Source: Perkinsus marinus ATCC 50983 | Lineage: Eukaryota > Perkinsozoa > Perkinsida > Perkinsidae | Direction of reading: 5' to 3' | Assembly (NCBI RefSeq): GCF_000006405.1 | Contig: NW_003203827.1 | Coordinates: forward strand, 24,961-65,250 | Length of the DNA stretch: 40,290 nucleotides | In this document: positions 9,495 to 39,456 of the stretch, one piece after another | Position numbering within the stretch: position 1 is the stretch's first letter | How the letters are laid out: each line of letters opens with the position of its first letter | Made by a program: the position numbers and the translations under genes | Notes under the pieces: model-generated | Database searches by the model: none | What the model saw: the letters and a program-made list of their open reading frames with translations, nothing else | What the model was told of the DNA's origin: nothing

Positions 9495-9514
9495 AGAAGG
9501 CCCTTCTTAGAAGG
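9495..9514. repeat. Inverted-triplication site (hexamer agaagg)
   Basis: agaagg, c, its reverse complement ccttct, t, agaagg. The flanks obey the rule (first spacer complements the base after, second spacer the base before). Non-coding, about 430 bp before the Merlin remnant. Confidence 0.85.
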
Positions 9515-9875
9515 GTTGAAAGAATGAAATAATGATAACAAATAATAGTGGTACTTTAGATCGTATAATACTATTGTTCTTATGCATATCTTTTTAATTC
9601 TTATATTGGCATTGTCCTTCCATTCCACAGCTGACTTCTTCTTCTGTTCCACGGGATTTCAGCCGGGTAACCGTTTTGTTCCTTCTCTCAGCTTAAACTC
9701 CAATCCTGGCGGAACCTCCCGGCCACCTCAGGTGACCTCATGTCATCATTTCATACCCGTTACCTTCTCAGCCATCTACCCACCACCTTCATGCCTGCTG
9801 TCACTCGCAATCAGCTGGCCGTCTGTGCGCTGGTTGACCAAGCCTTGTGGTAAATTTCCTGGCGTGCACAGGTTG

Positions 9876-9895
9876 CCCTGAGTCAGGGCCCCTGA
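9876..9895. repeat. Inverted-triplication site (hexamer ccctga)
   Basis: ccctga, g, tcaggg, c, ccctga. Flank rule obeyed. Just upstream of the Merlin coding remnant. Confidence 0.85.
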
Positions 9896-9929
9896 CTTCA
9901 AATGTCTATGAACCTTTTCTCCAACCAGG

Positions 9930-10605
9930 CTCATCCCGCTCCTCGAAGAGGAACCTCTCCTCGAGTGGCTGCAAGCTCATAAGCTCTTGAGCACGCATCT
10001 ATTATGCAGCTGTGGATTGCTCCGACGTTACTCCGAAACCACCAAAAGCGGCCTTCGCGTTTGGTATCTCAGATGTACCAACTCTGAGTCAGAGTCTCTG
10101 ACTGTCCTGTCACTGATACTCCTGTGAAATCCGGGATATGGTCAAGAACTACTCTATCATTCGCAATGATGGTAAGCATCTTATCCCTCATCGCCGTCGG
10201 TCGACGGCCTAAGGACATCGTCTCTGAACTCGGTGTGTCCTCGCGAAGCGTAACTTGTTCGGATTCAGTGGAACTGGAACCCGGTGGTTGCAAATAGCAG
10301 GCCAGGCTTGTGTCCTCTTCAATACGTCACAGGTACAGCAATCAAACAATATACAGTGCGATGAGATGGTGGTAGGTGGTAAGCTCAATTACCACAGACG
10401 TAAACCCGTGAGGCAATCCAAGCAGCTACTTCGGGTTGAAACTCTTGCTACTTTGGACGGCAATGGCCGTGTTAGTGGTGTTGTGGCTAGGCATGTCCCT
10501 GATAGGAAAGCTACCTCTTTGGTACCTCTGATAGATGAAGTTTCCGCTCCTGGTGCTACTTTAACTACTGATGAACTGAAATCTTACCTTTTCTTAATAC
10601 TTTAA
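9930..10605 (+). pseudogene. Merlin/IS1595-type DDE transposase remnant
   Basis: Merlin transposons encode an IS1595-like DDE transposase with an N-terminal zinc ribbon. Here a Cys-rich segment (LLCSCGLLRRY, then LRCTNSDC) and PVKSGIWSRTTLSF precede the helix-turn-helix-like RPKDIVSELGVSSRSV. The start of the catalytic domain follows as CDEMVVGGKLNYHRRK, then VARHVPDRKATSLVPLI and TLTTDELKSY, giving two of the acidic residues. The third acidic motif is missing because the ORF stops at 10605. The zinc ribbon and helix-turn-helix are in different frames only because of the 14-bp insertion at 10082-10101. The exact 5' end is unknown. Confidence 0.7.
10082..10101. repeat. Inverted-triplication site (hexamer ctctga), in the Merlin transposase
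   Basis: ctctga, g, tcagag, t, ctctga. Flank rule obeyed. The zinc-ribbon frame and the helix-turn-helix frame differ by exactly the 14 bp. Confidence 0.88.
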
Positions 10606-11620
10606 CTTTGCATTTTCTTCTATTCCTTTTTATTTTCTTTTATTTTTTTTTCTGTTTGTAGACAACAGTGTTAGATGGTAATGCAATAGCCGTAAATAAT
10701 TATTGTTCATAATCGAGCAATGTTGGTGGTAAATCAAGGTTTCCATTCCAGAATAGATTCTGAGAACTCATTCTGAGAGCGCGATTCGTTGAACGCGTTT
10801 CGGAATCGATTCCAGAATACATGCCGGAATATTTGTGGTAGTTGTACATGGCACCACCATCACAGCAGCTGCCGTCGTCACCGCTACCATTGATCAGTCC
10901 TAGGACAGCCCTAGGTTTGACACCGTTTTCCGCCCTACCGAGGTGAGTTTATCATTAAGTGTAGTAGTTGAGTGGAAGGGTGTGTATAGATCTATGGTTG
11001 AGGGTGTTCTCCGAAGCCCAGCCCCCCGACAACGGGACCAGTTAGGCTTCTCACAAGAGGCGGCCCAACAACCCCGATAACATTTACGGTGAAGTTAACC
11101 CCATTATCTCTACATGTCTCCCTCTTCGTACGTTACCTATTTCTTTTCCATTTTGGGAGGACCTTTAAACTTCGACTATCATCACGCTTAATACTCCACT
11201 GAGCTGTGGTTGTTGACACCCCCCTCCAAAGAGGATGTATTGTTACGTTATTGTTCGTCACCTTTGCAGTAGAGCATCATTAGTAGCCTGGTTTGTTCAA
11301 TTCTCAAATAATAGAGTTACCGTTTGCGTTAGCGTCCGTCTCATGACGATCATGCCTATATTACTTTTCCATACGATTTCACTCGTGGGGCTTTGCGTCG
11401 AAGTAAATGAGTCGAGAATACTATTCTCAGAATAGTATCGATAATGAGTCGACCGTTGATCTGTACGGAACTCACGCGCTCAAACACGTAGGACGTTTGT
11501 ATGATAAGCATCGTGTCATGTACGTAAGACAGCAACGTTTAATCCACTGTATTAGCGATCAGTACAACACATTGCACGAGGACTTTTGCTGACCTATAGC
11601 AGTGTATTTCTCCCACAGAA
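10606..11620. other. Non-coding stretch after the Merlin remnant
   Basis: It begins with a pyrimidine-rich tract (10608-10657). An imperfect set of gaatc/gattc motifs lies around 10741-10835 and one inverted-triplication site at 11415-11434. Short plus-strand ORFs (11235-11435, 11407-11592) have no recognisable domain. Confidence 0.4.
11415..11434. repeat. Inverted-triplication site (hexamer agaata)
   Basis: agaata, c, tattct, c, agaata. Flank rule obeyed. Lies about 190 bp before the helicase remnant. Confidence 0.85.
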
Positions 11621-12683
11621 ATGGACAGTCAACAAACCTTCGCCCTGAACGATATTTTGAATGATATATGCAATCCTGATAGACCACGAAACAGGATGTA
11701 TGTGGTAACAGGCATCGCTGGCGCCGGTAAAACTTATCATTCGTTTCACTTCGGTAAAGTCGAAGTGAAACTCGGCTGTCGTGTGTTGGTCAATATGAAC
11801 TACGGCGATCTCGCGTGCAACGGAGATTTGGGTACTGTCGTATCGTTCTCGTTCGAGAATCTCGAACGTGAATGCTACGGTCGTAGCAATCGAAAGGCAT
11901 TCAAGACGTGATTCGCGCATCAATGTCCGCCTAGATCGAACGGGAATTGTAATCGGTCTATACCCTCTGAAGCAAGAGGTGATCAGGCCGGACGGGACTA
12001 CACTTTGCCACATACGCAATATAGGCATAGAGCTCGGAGCAGCAGTAACGTGCCATAAATCGATTAGAGTCACATTGCAGTACGTGGTAGTCGATTTGAG
12101 CCCGATGATGGGTGATAGAAACATGAGCACGGCCTCAATCCACAACTCCATGGAGTCTCGTTTGGCCCAGCCATGGCTCTTCGGAGCGGTTTATACCATG
12201 CTGTCGCGTGTTGGGTCTTCGAATCGCATATACCTTAAATTTGTTGGATCGAGCAGATTCGCCAGAAAGATTTTCTTCTCTGGAAGTGCTCGACGATTTG
12301 ACAGGCTCTGTCATGAGAAAAGCCGTACATTTCTGGCGGTCAATGCGAGATTCGGCGCTCCTCGCAATATTCCCGAGGCCGCATCGTACTCATCGAATGA
12401 TGATTGGAATCAAGAGCTGACAGCCTTGATGAAGAACGTATCGGATGAAGTGAAACAGACTGGTGAAGAACTCTCGAATAAAGCTGTCAACTTCATGATC
12501 AACGCGAGTGCCGCGGGGTTCTTCGCTCAAGATGGGGAATCAGGGAACGGAGAGACAAGCTCAGCTTATGATGCGATGTCAAGGGCTCGGAGAGATTCCT
12601 TCATCGACATGGCTCGCAACAACAACGAGGCATGCCGTGAGCTTCTCACCAGTCATCCCCGCTCGGCAGTGCCAATGATTTGA
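11621..12683 (+). pseudogene. PIF1-like (possibly Helitron) helicase remnant
   Basis: The first ORF (11621-11911) starts with a Walker A motif, YVVTGIAGAGKT, then jumps directly to GCRVLVNMNYGDLACNGDLG, the late PIF1 segment before motif V. The central helicase motifs are therefore deleted. The junction coincides with an 11-bp inverted repeat with a 7-nt loop around 11744-11772. A shifted frame (11868-12683) carries ELGAAVTCHKSIRVTLQYVV and AVYTMLSRVGSSNRIYLKF, the PIF1/RecD motif V-VI region. PIF1 helicases of this kind are common in Helitrons, but no Rep domain is visible, so the source element is uncertain. With the core missing it cannot be an active helicase. Confidence 0.65.
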
Positions 12684-12686
12684 CGT

Positions 12687-13199: not shown

Positions 13200-14101
13200 C
13201 TAGTTCTGTGTTGTATGCCTGATAACTTGGCGCACCGCGTCCTTTAGACGCCTCTGTAGCTGTCCTGCTCTTGTTTCTAACTCCTCCGCATCCCTTATCT
13301 CCGTTCCCGAGTTGCACTTGTCTACTTGCTCTATGAACTTCTCCCAGTTCGTTCTCTTGAGATTTCGCCTTCCTTTCGCCGTGCGCCCATCCTGCCTGTC
13401 TCCCCTTCCGTCCCCCGGTGGTGCGAGACTGAGCCCAAGGGCTTCATGGTCGCAGGGAACGGCGAGGCCCATGACATCCGCCCCTTTTGCGCAGCATTCC
13501 GCGAGGCTTTCCCCCAAGAAGTTGCCGTCTATGGCGGAGCCCCATCTAGTATTGCGGAAGGTGTCGCGTCCCACATTGACGTTCACACATCTCAGGTTCT
13601 CCGAGTCAGCCCACCTGTCTATCTCGGCACCCCTTCTCCAGGACTCTCTGTCGTACTGGTTCCGGTGCTGTCTGCTCGGCGCTCTGGAGCACCAGCTGCC
13701 GGATTGAGCGTTAGGGTCCCCTCCCACTAGTGACCAGGGCCCCCCTTTGACTCTGCCCAGTACCTGTTCGAGTGCCTTGTCCCTCCCCAGGTAAAGGGAT
13801 GTGAGCTTAATCCATCGTCCCCAACCCGGTGGTCTGACCTCAGCTGTGACGTGGTCCTCCGCTGCTGTGCCAACCTTGTAGCCTACAAGTTGTAGGGGAC
13901 TCCCTGAGCAATCAGTATAGCCGCCCGCGGCCTTCTGGCGTTGGGGTCTCTCACGATGTCATAGGCCCCGCACCGCACTGGAGTTCCGGCTGGCGGTTCC
14001 TGTATAAGCACCGCTAACACGCCGGCTCTCTGAAACTCCTCCACGGCGATTGCCAGGGCTCCTGGCGACCTCATTATGTTTATGCAGCCCACCCTCATCA
14101 T
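13200..14101 (-). pseudogene. LINE ORF2 start: apurinic-type endonuclease domain (truncated)
   Basis: The endonuclease of non-LTR retrotransposons nicks target DNA. The ORF opens with MRVGCINIMRSPGALAIAVEE and LAVLIQEPPAG (the catalytic Glu region), continues with SLVGGDPNAQSGSW (Asp-x-Asn type motif) and RGAEIDRWADSENLRCVNV, then WGSAIDGNFL. This order is typical of R1/TRAS/Jockey-like LINEs. The frame is interrupted once, by the 14-bp insertion at 13876-13895; otherwise it reads through. It ends at 13200 before any reverse transcriptase, so the 3' two thirds of the LINE are gone. Confidence 0.75.
13876..13895. repeat. Inverted-triplication site (hexamer ttgtag), in LINE endonuclease
   Basis: ttgtag, c, ctacaa, g, ttgtag. 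Flank rule obeyed. Without the 14 bp the two halves of the endonuclease share one frame. Confidence 0.9.
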
Positions 14102-14141
14102 CCCCCTCGAAGAGCCCTGCTCGCCTGGCCCTTGTGGGCCA

Positions 14142-14161
14142 CCTGCCGGGCAGGTCCTGCC
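14142..14161. repeat. Inverted-triplication site (hexamer cctgcc)
   Basis: cctgcc, g, ggcagg, t, cctgcc. Flank rule obeyed. Falls in the short spacer between LINE ORF1 and ORF2. Confidence 0.85.
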
Positions 14162-14691
14162 CGCCCTTGCCCTGAATCAGGCCCGGACATTTATCTCTGG
14201 TGCCCTGCCCGGTTGCTCAAGCTCGTTCGCTGGCCCGCCGGCCTCACGAATAGCTCTCCCCGCGTCACATTTCATGTATTTCATAGAGCCATGCCCTTTG
14301 CATTTGCAGTGTCCACAGGTCCTTTGCGATGCCGGCAGGTTCCTCAGTGTGAAGTCCCTCTGTTGATGCCCAACCTGACCACACCACGCGCATCTCTCTG
14401 GTCTGTCCCCACAGCCCTCGCTTTCCGGGTGCCTCCCACCACAGACAAAACACACCCTGGTGTAGTAATGTGGTCTAACCCTCACCCTGGTGGCCCCGAT
14501 ATACAGGGCGTCCTTCGTACCTCCCTTCCCTAGGAACCTATTGGCAACCGCCTCTTCCATTTTGACGATGGCCGTGGCACTGATCGGCTCCCCTTGCTCA
14601 TCTTTCTTCGTCCATATTTTCACAATTTCCCATGGGACCTCCTCTGGAATCCCGTTCCTTCTAACGATCTCTCTCCTCAAGCCTTGCTCAC

Positions 14692-14711
14692 TGGCAACTT
14701 GCCAGTGGCAA
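14692..14711. repeat. Inverted-triplication site (hexamer tggcaa), in LINE ORF1
   Basis: tggcaa, c, ttgcca, g, tggcaa. Flank rule obeyed. Breaks the ORF1 frame upstream of the zinc-knuckle part. Confidence 0.9.
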
Positions 14712-14781
14712 GAGCGAGCGGAATGTCCGAAATGGAGAGCTCGCATGACTTTTGGGCCAGCTCTTTTGCCGACAGCCCTAG

Positions 14782-14801
14782 TGGCGGCCCGCCACTGGCG
14801 G
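14782..14801. repeat. Inverted-triplication site (hexamer tggcgg), in LINE ORF1
   Basis: tggcgg, c, ccgcca, c, tggcgg. Flank rule obeyed. Breaks the same ORF1 frame about 90 bp from the previous site. Confidence 0.9.
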
Positions 14802-14939
14802 GGCTCTGAGAATGTCCTGTAGGCTCCCGCGATCGCCTAGTTCAATGGCCAACCCAAACGAGGTTCTCCACATCCCAAGGATCTTCCATTGCGCTCCTTC
14901 CTCCCAGAGAGCCGTTTCCCGCATCTTTTTGAGGCAGGT

Positions 14940-14986
14940 GTTGTAGTCCTCGACGAGGACTACAACACGACGAGGACTCCTCGTCG
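14940..14986. repeat. Compound palindromic insertion in LINE ORF1
   Basis: Two linked one-base-centre palindromes: arms of 13 bp (14940-14952 and 14954-14966) and of 9 bp (14968-14976 and 14978-14986). About 31 bp exceed the length that keeps ORF1 in frame. Looks like a repeated or nested event of the same type. Confidence 0.7.
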
Positions 14987-15070
14987 TTGAGGTTCGGCCA
15001 CCTTCTCCCCTCTGGGATCCCCTGAAGCCTGCTGGAGAGGGTGATGACCAGCAGATGTTTGGGGCTACCC

Positions 15071-15090
15071 CTCTGACTCAGAGGCTCTGA
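15071..15090. repeat. Inverted-triplication site (hexamer ctctga), LINE ORF1 N-terminus
   Basis: ctctga, c, tcagag, g, ctctga. Flank rule obeyed. Confidence 0.85.
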
Positions 15091-15340
15091 GGGGCACCTG
15101 AGCGCTTCCTCTGTCTGCTCCGGTTTTTGCGATCCACTTGTGTCCAACCAGCTCCTTCTACCTGTTGCGAATCGCGATTCGCTGCCCTGGACTCGACCCT
15201 CCTCTGGCTGGGTTGTCCGGGCGGCCTCCTTGCTGCCCCGTCAATGGGAACTAACCTTCCGCCACCATGGCATGGTGGCGGACTTGTAGGTCAGCCATAA
15301 GTCCACTCTAACCGTGCGCACGTCTGCGAGACACGTGCAT

Positions 15341-15537: not shown

Positions 15538-15543
15538 AGTGGT

Positions 15544-15563
15544 GAAGAAGTTCTTCAGAAGAA
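15544..15563. repeat. Inverted-triplication site (hexamer gaagaa), element A Gag start
   Basis: gaagaa, g, ttcttc, a, gaagaa. Flank rule obeyed. Seven bp after the 5' LTR; it separates the LTR-borne Gag start codon from the Gag frame. Confidence 0.9.
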
Positions 15564-16348
15564 CCCGTGCTTCAAGAACCCTTTGCCCCACTGCTGCAAG
15601 CTCTGCAATTACGTGATCCTTCAGACCTTGAATTTGTCACTGCTGCCGACGTTACCTCAGCATTGCCACGTGAGGCCACACTTCAACAGAAGGTGGACTT
15701 ACTACGCCTCCTTAAGCAAGCCCATCACTCACAGCGTGCATTAAGCTCAGTTGCCTCTGTGTCCGGTAGCTCCCCTTCTGTTATGCTCGACGCCGCTCTG
15801 GACAACGATGATGAAGATGGTAGAGCTCTTGCTGGTGTCCTTCGACTTCAACCCCCAGATTCGGCTAAGTGGAAAGGCTCCTCTGATCTACGCCCAGCGA
15901 AAGCCTTCTTATATAAGGTTGCAGCCGCTGCTCGCCTTACCGCTTTATCTGAGATCAACACGTGGAGGTTTCTCACGCAAGTATGCCTACAAGAGCGCCA
16001 TACCAGAGAGCTACTAAGCTATCTAGAGGCTAATCATGGTGCTGGACTATCGATTGCCGATAAACTAAGGTTCACCGAACTATGGTTTAACCATCGCTGG
16101 AACATTACCAACAGTGTGGATCGAGTTTACCAGGAACTGGAGGCCATCAAGGTCAACGACTTCACTGATACAGAAACTCTACACAGCAGGCTTCTTAGCG
16201 CTCAGCAAGATGCGTCCTATCTAGGACATACCATTCCTCCGTCGACACTAAGGAGATCATTCCTAAAGGCCTTACCTGATGCTCTAAAAGCACCTCTGCT
16301 ACAGGTTATACCGAGCCCGGACGCCCCCTTGAACGACTTGGTGAACTG

Positions 16349-17578
16349 GTGTGTGGCGACGGAACAAAATGCCCCAAAAAGGCGGGGTTACAGACACCAA
16401 ACGCAGGGTATCCCCCGTTATGTCGATTGTTTACACAGGGACGGTGCCACTTTGGAGCTCAGTGCAAGTTCTCTCACGAAACCACAAGACCAACTGTTGC
16501 GCCGATCAGCGAGCTATGCCGCAATTATCAAGCTGGACGATGTGTCCTTGGAGAGCGATGCCGCTACCAGCACACCACAGGTGAGCACCCTAAAGAGCAG
16601 CTCAAGGAGGATACTAATCCGCCTACCTTATCTCCAGAGCCCAAGAATGCGTTAGGTGGTCTACACTCTACTGCCGGTAATCCCACTATACAAGTCACCT
16701 TCGACAACCACCCATCAACACCATTCAACGCCATTATCGACACTGGGTGTACAGACAGTATTGTCGCAGACTGGGTACTGTACCAGTTACATATGACGCC
16801 GACGCCACTAGATGTGCCTTACAGTGCCCGCTTACTAAATGGTGATAATGTAATTTATAAAGAATCGGTTGACTTATCTTGGGCCTTCGATTGGGAAGCG
16901 AACATGAAGAGGCTCTCAACATTTCTGGTATCTGCCAGTCTACCTTCGGGTTTGGCTGCTATATTTGGCCTCGACATCCAGAAGGAGCATAACTTCTTCT
17001 TCCATCCAGGTCGCTCTGAGATAGTCATTGACCAGCCCCAATGCCAACATATCTATGAGCCACCTGTCGACAAACTCAAGGTCTCCCATGCACTATTAAC
17101 CCCTTGCACTGCATCATTGGATCTATGTACCAACCCAATTAGAATCGCCGACACTAAGTCGTTTTTTATCGAAGTTAGTGCCGATGATGATGACCCTACG
17201 AGGAAGGTTTTTACTGTGGATATTAAAAGTGAGGCAATGCCAGCGGTGGGACAGAAGAAGCGGAGAACCCGTAAGCAGCACCCGCTCAACAAGCCCGACC
17301 CTGCAGACCCTGGGCTGTATGAGGAAACCAAGCAGAGGTTAACCAACCTCGTTGATACTGGACGCCTGGCACTCACAGTGGAGGATGGAGACTATGGTTA
17401 CCTGGCTACTACATACTACGGGGTTAGAGGAGCAAAAAGGGCACGACCAGTCTTCCCCTTAACATTGCTGAATGCCGCCATTAAGCCCTTGTTGGTTGAT
17501 TGCCCTTCACTGCAAGAGTCACTCCCGACGGGAGTCTCCCGTCTATTTTGGATGCAAGCAGAGGTCTTGCTAGGTTAA
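16349..17578 (+). CDS. Element A: CCCH zinc fingers, protease and start of reverse transcriptase
   Basis: Reached by a -1 shift from Gag. Two tandem CCCH fingers (Cys25-x7-Cys33-x5-Cys39-x3-His43 and Cys57-x7-Cys65-x5-Cys71-x3-His75, counting from 16349) replace the usual CCHC knuckles. The aspartic protease active site IIDTGCTDSIV follows at Asp131. The reverse transcriptase opens with RGAKRARPVFPLTLLNAAIK. The frame is lost at the 14-bp insertion 17522-17541 and ends at a TAA, while the catalytic domain continues in the next frame. Confidence 0.85.
   Translation: MCGDGTKCPKKAGLQTPNAGYPPLCRLFTQGRCHFGAQCKFSHETTRPTVAPISELCRNYQAGRCVLGERCRYQHTTGEHPKEQLKEDTNPPTLSPEPKNALGGLHSTAGNPTIQVTFDNHPSTPFNAIIDTGCTDSIVADWVLYQLHMTPTPLDVPYSARLLNGDNVIYKESVDLSWAFDWEANMKRLSTFLVSASLPSGLAAIFGLDIQKEHNFFFHPGRSEIVIDQPQCQHIYEPPVDKLKVSHALLTPCTASLDLCTNPIRIADTKSFFIEVSADDDDPTRKVFTVDIKSEAMPAVGQKKRRTRKQHPLNKPDPADPGLYEETKQRLTNLVDTGRLALTVEDGDYGYLATTYYGVRGAKRARPVFPLTLLNAAIKPLLVDCPSLQESLPTGVSRLFWMQAEVLLG
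16373..16379 (+). promoter_or_regulatory. Candidate -1 ribosomal frameshift heptamer (C CCA AAA)
   Basis: In the Gag frame the codons read gcC CCA AAA, a canonical X XXY YYZ arrangement. A -1 slip here moves from the Gag frame into the CCCH/protease frame, exactly the shift needed, and it lies 48 bp before the first zinc-finger cysteine. No downstream pseudoknot was worked out, so function is inferred from position and pattern only. Confidence 0.55.
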
Positions 17579-18678
17579 GCCTCATCGATGTCAGTGACGC
17601 ATTCATGAGGATCCACTGTGGGCCAAACCTGCAACGACTCCTGTGTGTATGGACTGATGGTGTACCGTATTCGTTCAGGGCAGTACCGTACGGCGCATCC
17701 TTCAGTCCATGGTGCCTCATCACTTGTATGAATTACCTTTGCAGTTCCCCACTCCTCGGCAAGTCCATCAGATTTTATATGGATGATGTAATCACCGAAC
17801 AACCTGATGAAGTACGACAACTTTTTGCAGCTCACGGATTCCCCACTACCTTAGCTGACACCAACAATTCGGACATCACCCCCTATTTGGGTATCGAAAC
17901 GGTGAATTATGGCAATGGTGTTCGTTATAGTGGCCGTGGTTGGCAGCAGTTTATCGACTTCAAACTCACTGGTAACCCTACTCTACGTGATGGTCTATCC
18001 TTGCTTGGCAAGGTGATGAGCTTGCCTGATTTTTTACCCTTATTCTTTTTACCAATACGTAACCTTCTACAATCTGCTATAGCACGTACTAAGCACGTGT
18101 TCGGCCTTACATGGGATTCTCCTATGCCTGAAGCATTGAGTAAACTACTCCATGCGTTTCACCAGCAATATAAGCTGGAAAAGCTACCGTTACTCAGCAG
18201 GAAAATCGATTCTGATGACGAGATCCATATCTACAGTGATGCTGGCGCTTATTGTGGCTGCTTTCGTGTCTATCAGAAACAGTCAGAGATCCTCCGGGGA
18301 CAGCACACATTCACCACAAGCGAGCTATCCTTACATATTAACTGTAAGGAATTCCATATGGTTCTATTGGCCTTACAACGTATTGTCCTCCTCGAAGGCC
18401 GCTTACGGAGACCGTTCGTGCACGTGACCTTGCATATCGATAGCCGGACTGTCTTGGCGGTCCTGCGTAATCGGCGCACGCGTGTGGGCCCTGTGCAACC
18501 ATATATGGACAAGACATTGAATTTGATTCAAGAACTACTTGGTGAACGCCTCTCTATGCTGGAACTGGTATATGTACCTACGGACGAGAACCCTGCCGAC
18601 GCTGGGACTCGGAACGACCTTCACAAGGAGCTCACAAAGTGGCGAGATAATTTCGAAGTTGTAGGCTACAACTTGTAG
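17500..18678 (+). CDS. Element A: reverse transcriptase catalytic part and RNase H
   Basis: Reverse transcriptase motif A is SLIDVSDAFMRI, motif B region VPYGASFSPWCL, and motif C FYMDDVI. RNase H shows IHIYSDAGAYCGCF (first Asp), LHINCKEFHMVLLAL (Glu), LHIDSRTVLAVL (second Asp) and NPADAGTR. The upstream end of this ORF is an artefact of the insertion at 17522-17541. The downstream TAG (18676-18678) is created by the insertion at 18659-18678. Taking out both 14-mers places this segment in one frame with the protease and with the integrase. Confidence 0.85.
   Translation: MPFTARVTPDGSLPSILDASRGLARLSLIDVSDAFMRIHCGPNLQRLLCVWTDGVPYSFRAVPYGASFSPWCLITCMNYLCSSPLLGKSIRFYMDDVITEQPDEVRQLFAAHGFPTTLADTNNSDITPYLGIETVNYGNGVRYSGRGWQQFIDFKLTGNPTLRDGLSLLGKVMSLPDFLPLFFLPIRNLLQSAIARTKHVFGLTWDSPMPEALSKLLHAFHQQYKLEKLPLLSRKIDSDDEIHIYSDAGAYCGCFRVYQKQSEILRGQHTFTTSELSLHINCKEFHMVLLALQRIVLLEGRLRRPFVHVTLHIDSRTVLAVLRNRRTRVGPVQPYMDKTLNLIQELLGERLSMLELVYVPTDENPADAGTRNDLHKELTKWRDNFEVVGYNL
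17522..17541. repeat. Inverted-triplication site (hexamer ctcccg), element A pol
   Basis: ctcccg, a, cgggag, t, ctcccg. Flank rule obeyed. Splits the reverse transcriptase between its fingers and motif A. Confidence 0.92.
18659..18678. repeat. Inverted-triplication site (hexamer ttgtag), element A pol
   Basis: ttgtag, g, ctacaa, c, ttgtag. Flank rule obeyed. Creates the TAG that ends the RNase H ORF and separates it from integrase. Confidence 0.92.
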
Positions 18679-18722
18679 CTTCTGGGAAAGATGACTCTGA
18701 GCCCACTGTCCAAGCAGTCCAC

Positions 18723-20224: not shown

Positions 20225-20302
20225 CTTCCTTCCTTCGCTCGCTCTCATTCGCTCTTTCCAACCTTCCTCAAGGTTGTTGCGTTCTGGCAATTAACTCTCA
20301 CT

Positions 20303-20322
20303 TACCGGCCCGGTAATACCGG
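20303..20322. repeat. Inverted-triplication site (hexamer taccgg), only in copy A
   Basis: taccgg, c, ccggta, a, taccgg. Flank rule obeyed. The matching place in copy B (about 33024-33040) has the single hexamer context with two substitutions and no insertion. Confidence 0.93.
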
Positions 20323-20680
20323 GGTAGAGCGACTCTCACCATCCGCAAATCGAAGTCTGACAGACGGCGTCTGTTACAGCTAAGCGAATAGTGAAGTCAG
20401 TGAGAGACTGCCCCTCCATGAAAATCACGCAAGACCTTTTTCACGCATGCATCTCTACTAGCTATCGATACAGAAATTGCTAACGCTCGAATCAACGTGA
20501 CATTATGGCCTTTATTGGTTCGAATCATAGCACTCCGGTATCAGACATGTAGCCCGGTCGGGCAGTAGTATATCAGGATGTTGCTAACATCATTAGGGTT
20601 GCTCCTCACAACATCTCCCCGATATTGGTCTGTGTTGTTTAGTAGTTTCACTTAATCTTCAGGAGGCTCTACTCTCAATA

Positions 20681-25424: not shown

Positions 25425-25430
25425 TGTGGA
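25402..25430. repeat. 14-bp-arm palindrome at the leader/LINE junction
   Basis: Arms 25402-25415 and 25417-25430 are perfect reverse complements around one c. The adjacent bases 25383-25400 are the reverse complement of the first Gag codons at 31041-31058, so the junction contains an inverted piece of element B. Confidence 0.8.
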
Positions 25431-25736: not shown

Positions 25737-25797
25737 TGCCGTTCGACGGGAGATTATTTAGCAGGGAATAAACGACAGGTAATTAATTTATGACAAG

Positions 25798-27621: not shown

Positions 27622-27624
27622 TGA

Positions 27625-31059: not shown

Positions 31060-31347
31060 TGTGGATGACAATTAATAACTTGAGCCAAGATGGCTACGGT
31101 ACCAATCTCAACATCATTGATCGTTCAACAGTGAATCTGATACCACAACCGTATACACGTGCAAACTGGCACGCAGACGCAATTTGGCACGCAGACGCAA
31201 CCGCACAAGAAAGGTAGCAGGCCTTGGCAGAAACTATAAACTTGAAGGACTAAAAAGTTGGAGTTGTCTAACACATCCCAAAAAGATGCTCCCTAGAAAG
31301 GCACAATACCATCGAAATGAGGGACAGTTAGGCACTGACCATGGTAC
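31052..31347 (-). repeat. Leader repeat of element B, right copy (LTR-like)
   Basis: Counterpart of 25416-25736 in the same orientation. It includes the single spliced leader and runs into the first codons of Gag. On its right edge it directly abuts the RNase H end of element D on the plus strand. Confidence 0.65.
31079..31100 (-). other. Genomic spliced-leader sequence upstream of element B Gag
   Basis: The reverse complement is the complete 22-nt leader, ACCGTAG then CCATCTTGGCTCAAG, with C at the pyrimidine position reported for Perkinsus. It ends 19 nt before the Gag ATG. Normally this sequence is added by trans-splicing and is absent from the gene, so its presence implies passage through a trans-spliced RNA. 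Confidence 0.88.
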
Positions 31348-31717
31348 ACACGGCCGGTTCTGCTGAGGCACGACTTCCGATGAAGATACCATCGAGGTCT
31401 CAGGCTTTTCAGTGTCTTATCATTACGTGGAGAGTGAGAGGAATCCGGCCGATCATCTCACACGAGCTCCCACATACCTCCGTTGGAAGAAACCCTCCCG
31501 TCGATCACCCGCTCCACAGTTGGCTGCTCCAGCTATTCTTGCAGATCAGAAGTAGTCGTGGCGCGAAGCTTCTCAAGCCAATGTTGACGGATTGCACATT
31601 CCTGACTCTCACCTAATTGAGCTCCTTACTGAGGTACACAACGATCATCACGAAGGCTCTGAAGGTCTGTTCAACAGATTGCGAGGATGGGTTCGCGCTC
31701 CTGGGCTACGAGCACAA

Positions 31718-31763
31718 TGCCGACTCGGCATTGTGCTCGGCATTGCCGAGTCGGCATTGCCGA
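31718..31763. repeat. Compound inverted-triplication cluster (hexamer tgccga), element D integrase
   Basis: tgccga and its reverse complement tcggca alternate six times. The right part (31744-31763) is tgccga, g, tcggca, t, tgccga. The left part has 14-bp arms (31710-31723 and 31725-31738) around one c. About 40 extra bp account for the frame change inside the HHCC domain. Confidence 0.8.
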
Positions 31764-32559
31764 CGTACGCTCCTACAGTGTGCGATGTGTCGTGCAAGTA
31801 AAGCGCACCCATATCAAAACTCTGATGGTCTCCAGGTACACAGCGACGGAATTGGGCGTAAACGTAGCAGAACCCCAGCCGAGATTGCTGACACGCGAAA
31901 GTCTGCCGTGCCCTTCAATAAGCTACACCTAGACATAGTCGGCCCTTTCCGTAAAGTTAACGATCGCTCTCAGTTTTACGTGGTCCCCTGCATCTGCAAC
32001 GCAACGGGTTATGCCCTTGGTAAGCCTGTCAGATCAGCACCCGTTGGCAAGGATGTGATCGACCTCCTGTCTCACATTTTTGCAACTTTCCACACACACC
32101 CCTTGGTGCTGTGTACCGACGGGGGTTCGAATCTAGTGTCAGGGCAGGTCACGGATTTCGTGATGGGGTTTGACATTCTTCCGCACATTACGGCAAAGAA
32201 CACGTCTCTCAGCAACGGACGTATCGAACGTCTTCATCGCACGATTGAAGAATATTCACGTTCGCACGTTCGCTGCGACCAAATAGCCTATGGCGTCTTC
32301 CATCGCACTGTTGGCAACAGTCTGTTGCTGAGTTTTTGCGCATGTACAATCACTACCCCTCTCCGAGGTGGAAAGAGTGCGCATGATAAGGTTTTCACTT
32401 TTCCGGCCAACTGCGACCGTTTTCGTCCAGTTCAAACGCGTCCGGAATATGCTCTCCTGTGTAAAGACCCGCGAGAGACCTGGGGTCCTGGTTTCCTGGT
32501 TGATAGTCCTGTGCTCTTGCGAGTCATGAGACCGACAAACAAGCTCTCGCGACGATGGG

Positions 32560-32579
32560 TACCGGGCCGGTACTACCGG
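32560..32579. repeat. Inverted-triplication site (hexamer taccgg), element D integrase end
   Basis: taccgg, g, ccggta, c, taccgg. Flank rule obeyed. Causes the early stop at 32588. Confidence 0.9.
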
Positions 32580-32757
32580 CAACCATAGCTGAACGTCTAG
32601 GGAAGAAGACTCACAGCCTCGTTGGTATGTCTGGTAAATTCGACCTCAAGGACCTCAAACCATTACCTGATTCGCGTTTCGGAGACCCTTGAGGCTTCCA
32701 TTTTTCCATCTTCCCTGTACATTCCTTTCGTTTATTTCTCTCTCTGTTTTTTTGCTT

Positions 32758-32932: not shown

Positions 32933-33391
32933 TTTTTACTGCCTCGCCTTCCTTCCTTCGTTCGCTCTCAATCGCTCTTTCCAACCTTCCTCAAGGTTGT
33001 TGCGTTCTGGCAATTAACTCTCACTTACCGGGTTGGAGCGACTCTCACCATCCGCAAATCGAAGTCTGACAGACGGCGTCTGTTACAGCTAAGCGGATAG
33101 TGAAGTCAGTGAGAGACTGCCCCTCCATGAAAATCACGCAAGACCTTTTTCACGCATGCATCTCTACTAGCTATCGATACAGAAATTGCTAACGCTCGAA
33201 TCAACGTGACATTATGGCCTTTATTGGTTCGAATCATAGCACTCCGGTATCAGACATGTAGCCCGGTCAGGCAGTAGTATATCAGGATGTTGCTAACATC
33301 ATTAGGGTTGCTCCTCACAACATCTCCCCGATATTGGTCTGTGTTGTTTAGTAGTTTCACTTAATCTTCAGGAGGCTCTACTCTCTCAATA

Positions 33392-33802
33392 ATGATGACA
33401 CCCCATATGATCTGCTTGATGGCCTGTTATGTTCTGGTATTTGTGGGAGCCTTGCCTGCTGGTAGATACGTTCACGAAGGGCAGGGCTACAGATTGACCT
33501 ATGTATTCACCGATTCTAGAATCGGGCTTGAGTTCGAGGTCAAAGGCCAGGCTCCCTTCGTGGACCCGCCGATCTACCCCCTGAAGCGCATCGCGGAGGC
33601 TTGGGCCGAGTCTTACTTCGTCGATTTCGAAGGCTCACCTGAGGGAGTTGATTACTGGTACCGAGGAATCAGGCATCTCTTCCCGGAAGTGGAGATTGCA
33701 TCTGCCGACCTGACAAGGGTGGTGGTTTACCCATACGATTCGTCGAATTTACTTGCTAAATTCCAAGATCAAGTCGTTGATTTTTTCGCCGAATCCGCTT
33801 GA
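33392..33802 (+). CDS. Small secreted protein of unknown function (copy 2)
   Basis: 136 residues with the same signal peptide and length as the gene at 20681-21091, and two amino-acid differences (KRIAEAW, VDYWYRG). The 5' flank differs by a two-base insertion just before the start. Retention of the open frame in both copies is compatible with function, but the duplication may simply be young. Confidence 0.75.
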   Translation: MMTPHMICLMACYVLVFVGALPAGRYVHEGQGYRLTYVFTDSRIGLEFEVKGQAPFVDPPIYPLKRIAEAWAESYFVDFEGSPEGVDYWYRGIRHLFPEVEIASADLTRVVVYPYDSSNLLAKFQDQVVDFFAESA

Positions 33803-34355
33803 GGACCTCAAGTTCAGGCTCGGTTGCACTTTTTGTACCACATTACTTATCAGACGTCTCACGGCCCTGATGTGGCTATACATGTCATATGTCCTCTTTT
33901 GTTGCGGAACCCACCGCCTTATTTTGTATGAGAGAAGCCATAGTCCCAGCTCTAGGATCAGGGTCTGATCAAAGATGTTGATGACCTCTGGGGCATTCTC
34001 GCTCGTGGTTCACGCTGTATTGCTCTCTTCGACTCGACTGAGGACCTTTTTTCTACTCAATCTCCATTATTGAGTCCATAATCTAGTTCATATTTGCGTT
34101 TAGGAGTAGAATTTATTGCAAGCAAATACATATCGTCGAGACTCGAGTCGGGAGCAAACATCGCGACTCTGGGAGAGGCATCAATCTTCACTTGACGCAA
34201 ATGGCTTCATCTCGTTCGCAAATCCCAATGAACATGAAGATTGGCATGTGAAGAAAGCGATCTTCGACTTCCGCTTTTGAATCGGCGATCCACAATTGAC
34301 TGAGTTCAACCGAGACGCCACATTAGCCGAGAAGCTTGTAATCCACGCTCCTCGA

Positions 34356-34375
34356 CTCGAGTCTCGAGTCTCGAG
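34356..34375. repeat. Inverted-triplication site (hexamer ctcgag), only in copy B
   Basis: ctcgag, t, ctcgag, t, ctcgag (the hexamer is its own reverse complement). Flank rule obeyed. Copy A has a single ctcgag at 21645-21650. Confidence 0.92.
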
Positions 34376-34755
34376 ATGTCTGAAGCTTGGAAGTTCAGCG
34401 GAGCCTCCTTGATTCCACCTTGGATTTTTCCGGCTTCCTTGGGAAACACAAATCTCCTTAGAAAACTTACACTCTCCTTAGATTTTTGTGGTTCACCCAC
34501 CTTTTCAATCTGAAATTCAGCAATTGAAAGAACAAATTTGACGAAAGCAATTTGTTTTTCGACGAGTGAAAGGAGTTGTTCACGAAATGAAAGTTCAAAT
34601 TTGAATGGAAAGTTCGATTTTCGTAGACCGGTCAAAAATGAGAGTTCAAATTTGTAAATGAAATTTATGAACTCGGAAACGCAAGTTCAAATTCGTCGGA
34701 CACGATACCAATTTCGACCAATGAAAGCTCACTTTCACCACATCTCGATATGCAC

Positions 34756-34775
34756 TATTCAGTGAATAGTATTCA
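34756..34775. repeat. Inverted-triplication site (hexamer tattca), copy B counterpart
   Basis: Same as 22031-22050. Confidence 0.88.
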
Positions 34776-34860
34776 CACTCCACGAGTTGACAACTCGCAC
34801 AATGTTGACTACTCGAGGCACTTCTCAAATGTGAACAGTTGTTGCGCAGAGTGAGACTCA

Positions 34861-35437
34861 CGGGTGGTTCTCCGGAACGTTGGGTCGCAATGTTCCGCTG
34901 CTCTCGTACGTTCTTTCATGGGGAAGCTCACCAAATGCATTTCCTCAACCATGATTCTGTGAGTCCCGCGTATTTGATTTCACGAAAACTCGGACAATGT
35001 AGTCGTTTCACCGCATATCTGAATAGCAGCTTCTCATAGGTCGAGACATAATCTTCGAGCAAAAGCTTTAGAACGTATTTGTTGGCCGTCCTTGGTAGAC
35101 CGCAGATCACCTTATCAAGATATGTGTCGATACCATCCAACACACTCCTGACTCCTTTTTGTACCAACTTGGTACAAGTTGGTACTACCAAGGTATGTCC
35201 CCACGCTCCTAAGCCATACCCGCAAATAGATGCGAGGTGATTGCGTAGTGCTCTCACCGCCCTCTTCCTGAGCCTTCTGAAAGTGTTCCACAGGGGAGTC
35301 AGGGTGCCTCTGATCAGCTCAATCTCCTGTCTAGCTTTGGCTGCTAGGGCTTTAACATGCGGATTCCACGAACTGCCCATTCTGATCACGTACCCAAGGT
35401 ACGTTATTTCCCGTTCTACTGGTATGTTCAGCAGGCT
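34861..35437 (-). pseudogene. LINE 2 paralogue, 5'-truncated reverse transcriptase end
   Basis: Carries only the last part of the reverse transcriptase (NIPVEREITYLGYVIRMG to ESWLRK). An eight-codon in-frame insertion (35167-35190) lies between GHTLV and VQKGVRS-type residues, and a one-base change shifts the extreme C-terminus. The body matches 22133-22690 closely. Confidence 0.8.
35161..35193. repeat. 24-bp palindromic insertion in copy B LINE
   Basis: Copy A reads gtaccaaggt at 22435-22444. Copy B has 24 additional bp forming arms gtaccaacttg and caagttggtac around gta. The insertion is in frame and adds eight codons. It starts like a standard site (taccaa, c, ttggta, c) with 10 more bp before the last taccaa. 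Confidence 0.88.
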
Positions 35438-35764: not shown

Positions 35765-36148
35765 TCACAGGTCAGAGCTGAGCCATTCACGATTCACACC
35801 CCCAACCTCTGCATCATGGGAATTTCGCGTGTGGGGATGCTTCGCAGCACCCGCAGAAGGTTTTGCTTGAAAACATACTTTACATGATGATAGATGTGAG
35901 TAGACATCCTTATCCATAGCTGGCCAGTAGTAATGCTTGAACAGTTCGTGGCGTATCTTGGGAGCTCCTGCATGATTGAACTCCTCGTGAATGTCGGCAA
36001 TAAGACGACCTCGTTTGGATCGTCGAGGAATAGGAACAGTAACCCGATAGCCGACATCAACAGGGACATAACTTCGGTAAACCAAACCGTTCTTGGTCGA
36101 TAATTGCACATGACAGCGTTGGTATTGTTGAGGAATTGGTGGTTTATG

Positions 36149-36168
36149 AGCAGAATCTGCTCAGCAGA
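36149..36168. repeat. Inverted-triplication site (hexamer agcaga), element C
   Basis: agcaga, a, tctgct, c, agcaga. Flank rule obeyed. Separates the linker frame from the integrase HHCC frame. Confidence 0.9.
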
Positions 36169-36211
36169 TACCAACTGATATAGAACCTTTAGATCATGAT
36201 CGTCCTCGTAG

Positions 36212-36231
36212 TCGGCACTGCCGACTCGGCA
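36212..36231. repeat. Inverted-triplication site (hexamer tcggca), element C
   Basis: tcggca, c, tgccga, c, tcggca. Flank rule obeyed. Lies in the RNase H-integrase linker, where one further single-base offset remains. Confidence 0.88.
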
Positions 36232-36327
36232 GGGACGTCAGGCGAACGAGAGATAGTAGCTAGACTCTGTAGGATTGGAGTACCATGTGAAAACCTCATC
36301 CAGCTGCGGGGAAGCGATCCATGACTG

Positions 36328-36347
36328 CCTAGAATCTAGGCCCTAGA
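36328..36347. repeat. Inverted-triplication site (hexamer cctaga), element C
   Basis: cctaga, a, tctagg, c, cctaga. Flank rule obeyed. End of RNase H. Confidence 0.9.
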
Positions 36348-36350
36348 TAG

Positions 36351-36370
36351 ATGATACTATCATCATGATA
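36351..36370. repeat. Inverted-triplication site (hexamer atgata), element C
   Basis: atgata, c, tatcat, c, atgata. Flank rule obeyed. Only three bp from the previous site. Confidence 0.9.
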
Positions 36371-36393
36371 GTCAGCACGTGAATTCTCCTCGG

Positions 36394-36413
36394 AAGTTAT
36401 TAACTTCAATTCA
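36394..36413. repeat. Degenerate inverted-triplication site (aagtta), element C
   Basis: aagtta, t, taactt, c, then aattca: the third copy has two substitutions but both spacer bases obey the flank rule. Taking out 14 bp here restores the RNase H end. Confidence 0.7.
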
Positions 36414-36632
36414 AACTTAATGTCGCTCCCGTTGGGAACTTCTCAACGAAGTACTCGACATGCTCACGTATGACATTAAGCAAACGATTTATTGCTTGCG
36501 TTGCGACAGTTTTGGTCTTGAGAGTTAACGGAGAACCTTTACACCAGCGATATACCGTACTACTATCGACGTAAGCTGTAACCAAGGATATGAGAAGACC
36601 TCGTTCTTCATGCCAAGTAATCAGGGAACTGA

Positions 36633-36652
36633 GACCTTGAAGGTCTGACCTT
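36633..36652. repeat. Inverted-triplication site (hexamer gacctt), element C RNase H
   Basis: gacctt, g, aaggtc, t, gacctt. Flank rule obeyed. Splits RNase H between its Glu and second Asp motifs. Confidence 0.92.
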
Positions 36653-37030
36653 CAGCCAAGCTTCGAGCTTCTTTTCTATTAATATGCCATGTCAGTTCTC
36701 GCTGAGACCAACTCCGAGACACTTCTTCGAGAGGGACTCCACCAACAAAGATAGAGTAGCCAGAGGCCCGTGAAGAGACATCAGAATGGAGGCTAATATC
36801 CTTACTTCTGGTGGAAGCATCATGAATACATGCTACCTTAGGCAAAAACCGAGTTAGAGAATCAATGCGTGAGCGCGAGTTAACCAGAGTATCATGGTCG
36901 GTAATGGGAACATCCCATTTTTCCAACTTACCAGCGAAGGAACGTATAGAATCACAGAGACAATGACTTTCAGGATGCAGTTTTAGTAAATCGGAGAAAT
37001 GACCATCAATGGAATAGGCAATTCGCTTGG

Positions 37031-37809
37031 TCAAATAACTGAAGTCAGTGTCCGCCGGACACTGTCCGGAAGGGCTTTTGCTTGGCATCGAAGTTGTAGA
37101 TCACCTTCTTCTCCTAGACGTAGTAAATAGCCAAGATGCTGAACCCATGGAGTAACACCGTTCTCGTTCTTGAGAGAGGACCGTTTCGAAGGTGGGAAAT
37201 CCCAGCCGAGGACATGGGCATAAGTTGAAAGGCTTTCGGCGTGTTGAAGGAGATTTTGACCTACTAGAGAGATATCATCATAATACCATGCATGATATTT
37301 CACTGTGGAGCCTGTGGAACATTTCCGAAGTACTTCATCAAAATGATGGGTTGCTTCTTCTAATGCACCCGGCCCACAATTAATACCAAACAGCATTCGT
37401 TGTGATCTGAAAATTTTGTTACCAACCTTCACATACAGTGGCTCAACTGTTCGAAATCTATAGTAGCATTTCGACAAATCTAGCACCATGAGTTCGTCAC
37501 CACGACGGAAGTGCGAACGAAGGCGGTCAAGAACCTCAGTTGTCGATAGACCAGAAATTTTGGTCCAGAATAGGAAGAGGGGATATCCAAAGAATCATTG
37601 AAGACTCTCAGATCAATAACCGGACGAACCGGTGTTGTATGACCAGGTTGGCTGAAAGGAAAGCATATCGCAACTGGTGCTCCTTGGGGTACGTCCGCTC
37701 TCGAAACTTCCTGCCACCAAGCTTTTGCTTGATAGGAACCAGTTTCCGACCAGAATAAAGCCTTCTCTTGCTCAGGGAGTAGATTCAGAAGATTCTGGGA
37801 GTAGTCCAC
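37031..37809 (-). pseudogene. LTR element C: reverse transcriptase
   Basis: Motif A is MVLDLSKCYYRF, motif B LFGINCGPGALEE, motif C AWYYDDISLV, and the upstream fingers include PFSQPGHTTPVRPVIDLRV. A one-base frame change near 37550 divides the fingers from motif A. The insertion at 37049-37068 divides the connection domain from RNase H. All three catalytic aspartates are present. Confidence 0.8.
37049..37068. repeat. Inverted-triplication site (hexamer tgtccg), element C
   Basis: tgtccg, c, cggaca, c, tgtccg. Flank rule obeyed. Splits reverse transcriptase from RNase H. Confidence 0.92.
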
Positions 37810-37883: not shown

Positions 37884-38396
37884 TTACCTCATCCGCTCTA
37901 AGACTCTTAGACTAAGAGGTCGTACACGAAACTGATAGCCCGAACCAGAGCATGAGCGTAAAGGACGCCAAGGGCATACAAGTTCCTGAGCAATTGCAGA
38001 GAGTTGGTGTTGTTGTTGTTGTTGTTGACCCGGTGTTGTTGATGGTGAACGCGATGTAGTTGCGAAAATCAGCTGTCCACTTGCCGGATGATCTTGACCA
38101 AGCTCAAGTTTAGCAGAGTACTTAGAGAGGAAGTCGTGACCAAGTATACAAGTAGGAAGATTGCCAAGACTGGCAATGTAAAAGTAATGAATGAACTCCT
38201 GAGGAGTACCTTGTAGATGAAATTGTATACCAAGCTTAAACTGTACAGAGAGAGTAGTATCAGGAGTAGTAAATCTCAGAAATTTAGGCAGTTTCCGAGC
38301 AAACTTATTGAGCCCGAGATTTGAAGTAAATCGAGAGTCGATAAAAGATGCCGAGGCACCCGTATCCACTAAGGTTCGACACGTTACCGGATTCAT
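37884..38396 (-). pseudogene. LTR element C: aspartic protease
   Basis: Active site TLVDTGASASFIDSRF, flap region and PTCILGHDFLSKYSAKLELG (second conserved block), then a Gln-rich spacer (codon repeat at 38010-38028). It starts by a -1 overlap with Gag, as in element A. The ORF ends artificially after the insertion at 37898-37917, whose removal joins it to the reverse transcriptase frame apart from one in-frame TGA near 37845. Confidence 0.8.
37898..37917. repeat. Inverted-triplication site (hexamer ctaaga), element C
   Basis: ctaaga, c, tcttag, a, ctaaga. Flank rule obeyed. Splits protease from reverse transcriptase. Confidence 0.92.
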
Positions 38397-38978
38397 TGGG
38401 AAATGCTTTGAAGGATCAAAGGCTCCTTTGAGGACGACGGGCCGGTAGATGCCGCCGCCCTCTCCCCGTTTGGGTGATCATCGGAGGCAGTAGATGTAAC
38501 AGTAGATATATTTGATCTGTTCCCCACTTCACGTTCTCGAGCGAGCCGTGCAATAGCCTTGCATTGAGAGGTCCAGTGAGAATCAATTTTATGATAGGCA
38601 CACCATTTTTTTCCATCACCATCATCCTGTTGACCATTTTGCCGATTATACCGGCGCTTTTGGCGTGAGTCACGCTCCAAATAGATAGCAGACATTGTTG
38701 AGGGCGTCATGGTAGCACCGATAGAGGCTCGAGAGGAATCGTATGACTGAGTGATCATCTCGATACGAGCTTGATAAGCGAGATCTTCCACCTTAGTAAA
38801 CTGCATTACACGAAGCCTTGACGATATATTTGGAGGTAGAGCATCCAAAACCTTGAGAATCATATCACGGTGGTAGCTCTCGTTGGCATCAACCTTGATG
38901 AGATCATCAAACTTGGGCAGCTTCTCAGGAGAAGTAGTAGCCAAGTCAGGAACAACAAAGTGTGCTTCAAAATATAAC

Positions 38979-38998
38979 TTGTTCTGAACAAGTTGTTC
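38979..38998. repeat. Inverted-triplication site (hexamer ttgttc), element C Gag
   Basis: ttgttc, t, gaacaa, g, ttgttc. Flank rule obeyed. Splits Gag into two frames. Confidence 0.92.
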
Positions 38999-39204
38999 AA
39001 CTCATAGATGAGGGTGTCAACAGACTCCCCCGCCTCCAATGAATGGTCTCGAAGGTTAGCAGCGGCCAAGTAAAGGGGGCGTAATGAGGCGACAGAGCGA
39101 AGCAACTCGTACCGCATTATAAGAAACCTGGACCATGGGATTGATCTGCGACCCTAAGTGTTCGGGCCTCAGATTTCCCATTTTGTTAGCCTCGCTGCAT
39201 TGTG

Positions 39205-39224
39205 TCACGACTCGTGACTCACGA
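39205..39224. repeat. Inverted-triplication site (hexamer tcacga), element C Gag
   Basis: tcacga, c, tcgtga, c, tcacga. Flank rule obeyed. Confidence 0.88.
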
Positions 39225-39236
39225 GTACCGTGTACA

Positions 39237-39256
39237 TTGCTGACAGCAATTTGCTG
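39237..39256. repeat. Inverted-triplication site (hexamer ttgctg), element C Gag
   Basis: ttgctg, a, cagcaa, t, ttgctg. Flank rule obeyed. Overlaps the next site by two bp. Confidence 0.88.
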
Positions 39257-39274
39257 TCTCGGAGACAATGTCTC
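39255..39274. repeat. Inverted-triplication site (hexamer tgtctc), element C Gag
   Basis: tgtctc, g, gagaca, a, tgtctc. The two spacer bases do not follow the flank rule, perhaps after later substitution. Confidence 0.8.
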
Positions 39275-39436
39275 TTCATGCTCTCTATGCATGTCTTTTT
39301 ACATTCATAGATGGCATGGTTACCTGATATTACTATCAGCTATTTCTGTCGCAAATCAATTCTCTTTCGCTGAGTCATCTGGGAAAGATGACCACATCGT
39401 CAGGTTGCTGTGATTGGTGCGTGAAGGTGACGCACA

Positions 39437-39456
39437 AGGCTGACAGCCTTAGGCTG
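39437..39456. repeat. Inverted-triplication site (hexamer aggctg)
   Basis: aggctg, a, cagcct, t, aggctg. Flank rule obeyed. Non-coding, between element C Gag and the Gag-like ORF at 39576. Confidence 0.85.

Follow-up and report, generated by a model that had tools for sequence, protein, structure and literature searches.

The scars that DNA transposons leave on excision are normally hard to recognise. Perkinsus marinus, a parasite of oysters, apparently carries thousands of identically shaped 14-base scars, which were first noticed in a stretch of 40,290 nucleotides of strain ATCC 50983 (contig NW_003203827.1, positions 24,961 to 65,250 of the forward strand). This whole stretch is called the window herein, and coordinates refer to it unless a fetched locus (L) or another contig (C) is named. 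Each scar is a block of the form W(1-7)+rc(W)+W(2-8), where W is a sequence of eight bases and rc(W) is its reverse complement; the extra bases are an inverted copy of the flanking DNA. We propose, with a probability of roughly 0.87, that these blocks are excision footprints of hAT transposons that were healed with a near-single repair outcome. The proposal is built on the block itself, on empty counterparts of it, on its fixed length, on a target preference, and on the presence, in this genome, of hAT elements whose duplications match; these elements, or kin of them, would once have sat at the blocks.

What is new here is the near-single outcome and its scale; the hAT excision signature itself was already known. 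No published description of such blocks was found in the Perkinsus or the hAT-footprint literature, as far as titles and the beginnings of abstracts tell and with subscription papers mostly outside the search.

The block and its occurrence in the window

The whole window, with runs of N excluded, was scanned for a hexamer followed by one nucleotide, its reverse complement, one nucleotide, and the hexamer again, and 33 exact places were found. Both spacer rules, by which the first single nucleotide is complementary to the base after the block and the second to the base before it, are kept by 30 of the 33. The initial annotation had listed 31 places with two exceptions (31744 and 39255), and this list is right within small corrections: the overlapping places 31737 and 31744 are best counted as a single decayed event with a natural palindrome at its side, and place 39255 is an older decayed block that adjoins 39237. 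In the eight-base form, the window contains 30 exact blocks, and 42 when up to two mismatches are allowed. The first of the latter lies at 4609, so that the series reaches back beyond position 9495, where the annotation had let it begin. In 20 first-order Markov copies of the window, no exact block and a total of three with at most two mismatches appeared, in keeping with the earlier estimate that the chance expectation is negligible.

The window is rich in retroelements, since six of seven frames scanned with Pfam match reverse transcriptase, integrase, or protease, and the density of blocks, at 30 exact ones in 40 kilobases (kb), is correspondingly high. An open frame of 1032 amino acids with a reverse transcriptase match (27973-31071) lies inside a block-free stretch (24333-31735), and is possibly the window's youngest retroelement.

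One length and one offset

Counts throughout were obtained from a sample of the genome, which comprises 54.5 megabases in 347 contigs. The sample for the length test consisted of 235,302 readable bases, i.e. the window and the fetched loci, with L030 left out (it overlaps L029 on one contig) and with both strands collapsed in the counts of contexts. At offset 1, a W of eight bases gave 82 distinct exact contexts, and lengths of 6, 9, and 10 gave 0 each. A length of 7 gave five contexts, three of which are in a TAG-type microsatellite of L012 and two elsewhere, and a length of 5 gave nine, where a few are expected by chance because only eight bases are constrained. A wider table (238,808 bases, L030 included) had 0 contexts at lengths of 11-13. 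At a length of 8 in that table, 87 contexts fell on offset 1, none on offsets 0 and 2, and two each on offsets 3 and 4, and other combinations of short length and larger offset had a few contexts each, at most nine. The sharp peak in arm length that the initial annotation had asked for is thus present, also beyond the window, with the neighbouring lengths empty or nearly so.

Two exact blocks with a seven-base W outside microsatellites (L008:2462 and L026:376) are above the chance expectation; they may represent either 7-base-pair (bp) duplications or decayed 8-bp ones.

This distribution bears directly on replication template switching, in which snap-back copying makes inverted copies. Inverted copies and hairpins are known products of such switching, and the events described range from six to 59 bases (PMC8794818, in part). 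Variable lengths would accordingly be expected, whereas in the present sample the lengths adjacent to eight are empty; moreover, template switching predicts no preference for the target bases described below. On both counts it is disfavoured, and we regard it as highly improbable; the initial annotation had likewise favoured a fixed enzymatic geometry over switching of variable length.

To estimate the extent of the phenomenon, eleven 10-kb stretches were taken from other contigs at arbitrary coordinates with repeats kept; one was all N and one partly N. In the 95,766 readable bases, 15 blocks were exact, and 47 were found when up to two mismatches were tolerated; these counts extrapolate, roughly, to ~8,500 and ~26,700, respectively, in the genome.

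Empty sites and the 14-bp insertion

Alignments show that some paralogs of the blocks carry W alone and are exactly 14 bp shorter, and that others carry the same block. An empty-site relative of this kind exists for 23 distinct blocks. When the two flanks were placed independently (L030 and L003, a tandem array, were left out of these counts), 38 pairs enclosed W alone and 65 pairs the full block; the few larger gaps between flanks were inside duplicated stretches or adjoined a second block. A survey of insertions and deletions between paralogs yielded 39 distinct insertions that were 4 bp or longer; exactly 14 bp was the size of 15 of them, and the next commonest size was 15 bp (n=4). All 15 of the 14-bp insertions overlap a block with no more than four mismatches, and 9 of the 24 others touch one too. 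The process is recent, because near-identical copies differ by blocks: the exact footprint at 36211-36232 is empty in a 98% identical copy on contig C12 (L029), and C12 has two blocks that are absent from the window. The insertion of 14 bp described in the initial annotation is therefore real, as paralogs with W alone demonstrate, but it most likely marks a healed excision site and not the inserting action of a new enzyme.

For an artefact of assembly or sequencing, no supporting point was found. The same blocks with the same flanks occur on different contigs, decayed forms bear scattered substitutions, and the blocks have a target preference and are rare in long frames (see below), all of which makes an artefact scarcely credible. 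A chance origin is likewise disfavoured, by the simulations, the length distribution, the target preference, and the decay.

Target sequence and candidate source elements

After shared events were collapsed, 162 W sequences were available. T at position 2 or A at position 7 (T2/A7) was found in 138 of 324 positions (0.426 vs. 0.259 expected, p = 8.5e-11), and T1/A8 was depleted (49/324); positions 3/6 and 4/5 exhibited no significant preference. Decayed blocks show the T2/A7 preference too (75/180), and exact and decayed blocks agree. The preference is that of Hermes, a hAT element which makes its 8-bp duplications at nTnnnnAn (PMC10368747 and PMC2803484, in part).

A genome profile search for the hAT dimerisation domain (PF05699) gave 14 matches, each of them above the cut-off (L020-L022 are included), and three of these loci have open frames of 725 to 850 amino acids. 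One hAT element of 4.34 kb is present in three copies (C79, C157, and C333) that differ at five aligned positions; each of the three has its own perfect 8-bp duplication, and their coding parts are spread over several frames. Twelve shorter elements, in a size range of 1.43-1.59 kb, have both ends in common (nine of 1,433-1,445 bp and three of 1.50-1.59 kb). The ends of ten were fetched, one of which was unreadable on one side; eight of the other nine have perfect, different 8-bp duplications, and one has none. The long and the short elements alike have short terminal inverted repeats, with ends that begin CATAC[AT]. Among the 11 element duplications, T2/A7 occupied 15 of 22 positions (p = 4e-5).

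A query made of the joined flanks of the three long copies led to contig C202, which is identical over all 608 joined flank bases of one 4.34-kb site, at the same coordinate as C79, and has no element there; this insertion therefore differs between twin contigs. Together with the near-identity of the copies, this presence and absence suggests recent hAT movement. C79 and C202 (L020 and L040) share sequence at the same coordinates, and twin (haplotype) contigs seem to have been retained in the assembly.

A strict search of the fetched DNA for a duplication together with terminal inverted repeats gave 8-bp hits only in the L012 microsatellite. A relaxed version recovered two of the known long copies and one weak candidate, with 6 hits at 7 bp and 3 hits at 9 bp as controls.

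Could a transposase of another, non-hAT superfamily have made the blocks? The product demands merely an 8-bp duplication and a flank hairpin with an offset of one base. On the other hand, hAT elements with the matching duplication length and the T2/A7 preference are present in this very genome, and we know of no superfamily but hAT that has both features, although no other superfamily was searched for. Such a source is very improbable.

Two further observations concern the hAT complement. The 4.34-kb element itself carries four blocks with at most one mismatch (element positions 375, 2022, 3666, and 4045), which are the same in all three copies; therefore the element was hit before it spread. 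In addition, L015:1-1791 (contig C25) contains a long, uninterrupted hAT-like frame for a protein of 792 amino acids, which bears the database name 52-kDa repressor of kinase inhibitor and has a relative in Perkinsus olseni that is 79% identical over 97%. Judged by its sequence, this might be a domesticated hAT gene.

Proposed excision and repair

In hAT excision, the nick is placed one base outside the element, which agrees with the published centring of footprints. The steps proposed here are drawn from what has been published on hAT biochemistry and from the product itself. An element would insert with an 8-bp target-site duplication, giving W-element-W. Upon excision, the transposase would nick one base outside each element end, and the freed 3'-OH would attack the opposite strand at the element boundary, so that the flanks are closed as hairpins (left, W1..W7-W8'..W1'; right, W8'..W2'-W1..W8). 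A host nuclease might then cut each hairpin open at a distance of several bases from its tip and so produce 3' tails with W8'..W1' and W1..W8, which could anneal because they are complementary over the target duplication. Trimming of flaps and filling of gaps would result in W(1-7) rc(W) W(2-8), i.e. +14 bp, for any W.

Parts of this scheme are familiar from other hosts. Hermes cuts the non-transferred strand first and forms a hairpin on the flank (PMC6900584, in part), and Ac/Ds footprints consist of deletions and of insertions of palindromic (P) nucleotides centred on the complement of the base beside the element (PMC5873905, in part). The unit length in Perkinsus equals the 8-bp hAT target duplication. 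The initial annotation had pointed to an enzyme with a defined geometry, and one length, one offset, and a hAT-type target preference support that idea. It had also held that no named signature of this kind exists; on this point it must be revised, as a length of eight, an offset of one base, and inverted copies of the flanks match what hAT excision predicts (PMC5873905, in part).

The repair was simulated for randomly drawn W and flanking sequences, with 400 trials per cell and a required microhomology of at least 3. The full product arose in 0.99-1.00 of trials when both nicks were at least 6 bases from the tip, and in 0.83-1.00 when one nick was at least 8 and the other at least 3 bases from it; nicks nearer the tip mostly did not give it. 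Thus, a length of 8, an offset of 1, and a gain of 14 bp need no exact nick, because pairs of nicks that leave overlapping tails converge on one product.

A near-single outcome

In a scan over lengths of P nucleotides, 96 full products (repeats kept) were found vs. no more than 2 of any partial or longer product with at least 4 P nucleotides. A class of +6 insertions exceeds one shuffle (222 vs. 52). After removal of simple repeats, T2/A7 was found in 77/310 positions of this class, and the +7 and +8 classes (5/44, 6/38, and 4/22) showed no preference either. The +6 class was considered as a set of classical short hAT footprints, and was not counted as such because it has no T2/A7 preference. 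At L034:1620 and L035:1620, a +16 block equals the usual product with one extra CA, and could be due to out-of-register annealing or to later slippage.

Several points weigh against hAT excision as the origin of the blocks. A mixture of footprints like that of Ac/Ds was not found, as partial P-nucleotide products are nearly absent, and hAT footprints in Candida are heterogeneous, with 28 types among 128 events (PMC5873905, in part). In the small sample of paralog flank pairs, no filled element was seen, nor did a query of unproven sensitivity return anything when made with the eight footprint alleles predicted for intact copies. One hAT family was sized, and its 15 two-ended copies are vastly fewer than the footprints. 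The 11 element duplications have T1/A8 in 6 of 22 positions, without the depletion seen in W, so that this hAT family need not be the main source. Finally, deletion-type footprints were beyond what the scans could recognise.

A single product form is also what a dedicated or domesticated hAT-type enzyme might make, either by programmed or defensive frameshifting of mobile elements without ordinary transposon traffic, or by excision tied to one repair route. The uninterrupted hAT-like gene with its relative in P. olseni would fit such an enzyme, as would the greater density of blocks in the retroelement-rich window (30 exact in 40 kb vs. 15 in 95,766 bases elsewhere). Nonetheless, the repair needs two prior copies of W, and these come with an integrated element but not with a bare cut; the low density of blocks in long frames is what the loss of broken genes would produce; and recent, ordinary hAT elements are present. 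We therefore consider a dedicated enzyme improbable, and prefer excision of ordinary hAT elements.

Under hAT excision, the uniformity implies either that nearly all hairpins are cut open well away from the tip before annealing via the target duplication, or that a dedicated route exists. The genome has one match to DRMBL (SNM1/Pso2/Artemis-type), one to the Mre11 DNA-binding domain, and two neighbouring matches to Ku, one of which is over the cut-off in a frame with two stops. None of these matches alone explains the uniformity. Loss of Ku was considered as the cause of the single product and is not supported, as two Ku matches exist. A bolder and rather unlikely possibility is that healing of hAT hairpins in P. 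marinus is near-deterministic, whether run by the host or coupled to the transposase, such that almost every excision becomes a +14 frameshift, many thousands of them in all, which would act as a brake on the genes of mobile elements.

Effect on reading frames

Because 14 is not a multiple of three, a block within a gene shifts the frame. For a count of block density, five overlapping or near-duplicate loci were dropped and frames were taken from stop to stop. Frames of at least 400 amino acids contained 1 block in 29,785 bases vs. 169 in the rest of 215,418 (0.34 vs. 9.1 per 10 kb), and frames of at least 150 amino acids contained 24 blocks in 72,902 bases vs. 146 outside (3.3 vs. 10.2 per 10 kb); this scarcity is partly circular, since a long frame is likely to be cut short by the very frameshift. 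The sole block inside a frame of at least 400 amino acids is the exact footprint at 17521-17542, at the junction of the overlapping frames 16349-17578 (with a protease match) and 17500-18678. By arithmetic on the frame coordinates, the phase difference of the two frames that meet there equals a shift of +14. A further exact footprint (18658-18679), located by the pattern scan and the frame coordinates, is at the end of frame 17500-18678. Spliced or excised mini-introns, which were considered since some blocks are in retroelement frames, are not needed, as blocks are rare in long frames.

Relation to known systems

The closest likeness is to Ac/Ds in plants, Saccharomyces, and Candida, which shares palindromic copies of the flanks, centring on one base, hairpins on the flanks, and microhomology at the joint (PMC5873905 and PMC4561436, in part). 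Ac/Ds, however, leaves mixed short P-nucleotide insertions and deletions, whereas nearly all recognisable footprints of P. marinus have the full inverted copy of 8 nucleotides, gain 14 bp, and are spread over the genome. Hermes has the same T2/A7 preference in its 8-bp duplications, but is an insect element, while the hAT ends of Perkinsus begin with CATAC. For TcBuster, small insertions complementary to the flank have been ascribed to hairpins and end joining (PMC3499496, in part); its target is nnnTAnnn, however, and its outcomes are variable and include deletions. Template-switch mutations resemble the blocks as inverted copies made in situ, and differ in a variable unit length and in lacking a target-duplication length or preference (PMC8794818, in part). 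In mPing, a PIF/Harbinger element, the target duplication also guides the repair of excision, but repair is mostly precise, via staggered cuts in the duplication, and has no flank-hairpin footprint (PMC4561436, in part).

If the blocks are hAT footprints, they identify themselves from one genome with no outgroup, and each records its 8-bp target, its position, and, by its decay, its age. Excisions could thereby be counted against surviving copies, and natural hAT target sites would become available in large number. The blocks would also be a self-explaining source of +14 frameshifts, which bears on gene annotation in Perkinsus. Moreover, the resolution of hAT hairpins in vivo would become testable, because this lineage has about one outcome, whereas yeast, Candida, and plants have many.

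Individual proposed footprints in the window

The first exact footprint, with W=AAGAAGGG, is at 9494-9515, and its empty site is in L015. Pattern scans located further ones at 9875-9896, 10081-10102, 11414-11435, 13875-13896, 14141-14162, 14691-14712, 14781-14802, 15070-15091, and 15543-15564, and, further along, at 24311-24332, 32307-32328, 32559-32580, 37048-37069, and 37897-37918. Two exact footprints have their empty sites within the window itself, 20302-20323 in a second copy (32980-33077) and 34355-34376 in the other copy (21599-21696). The one at 22030-22051 is common to a copy at 34755-34776, as the paralog alignment shows, and to L029. Contig C12 shares those at 36148-36169 (in L029), 36327-36348, 36350-36371, 36632-36653, and 38978-38999. 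Three exact footprints are in a many-copy repeated stretch (39142-39571): 39204-39225 has an empty site in L031, 39236-39257 in L031 and L032, and 39436-39457 in L031, L032, L036, and others.

Among the decayed footprints, a mismatch scan found those at 4609-4630, 8542-8563, 14970-14991, and 37550-37571, each with 1-2 mismatches. Those at 20353-20374 and 21087-21108 (2 mismatches each) are common to copies at 33062-33083 and 33798-33819, respectively, by paralog alignment, and the one at 36393-36414 (2 mismatches) is common to C12. At 31736-31757, a footprint with 1 mismatch and W=CTCGGCAA abuts the natural palindrome, and the overlapping match at 31743 is not a second event. The older decayed footprint at 39254-39275 has 2 mismatches and adjoins 39236.

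A few other features of the window were recorded. A run of 100 N occupies 24746-24845. A repeat of ~240-400 bp (21773-22172) has dozens of matches across many contigs among those listed (40 of 118 candidates scored), and within the same set its matches often form nearby inverted pairs. At 35162-35185 and at L029:3071, a 24-bp insertion resembles the usual block with ten further palindromic bases.

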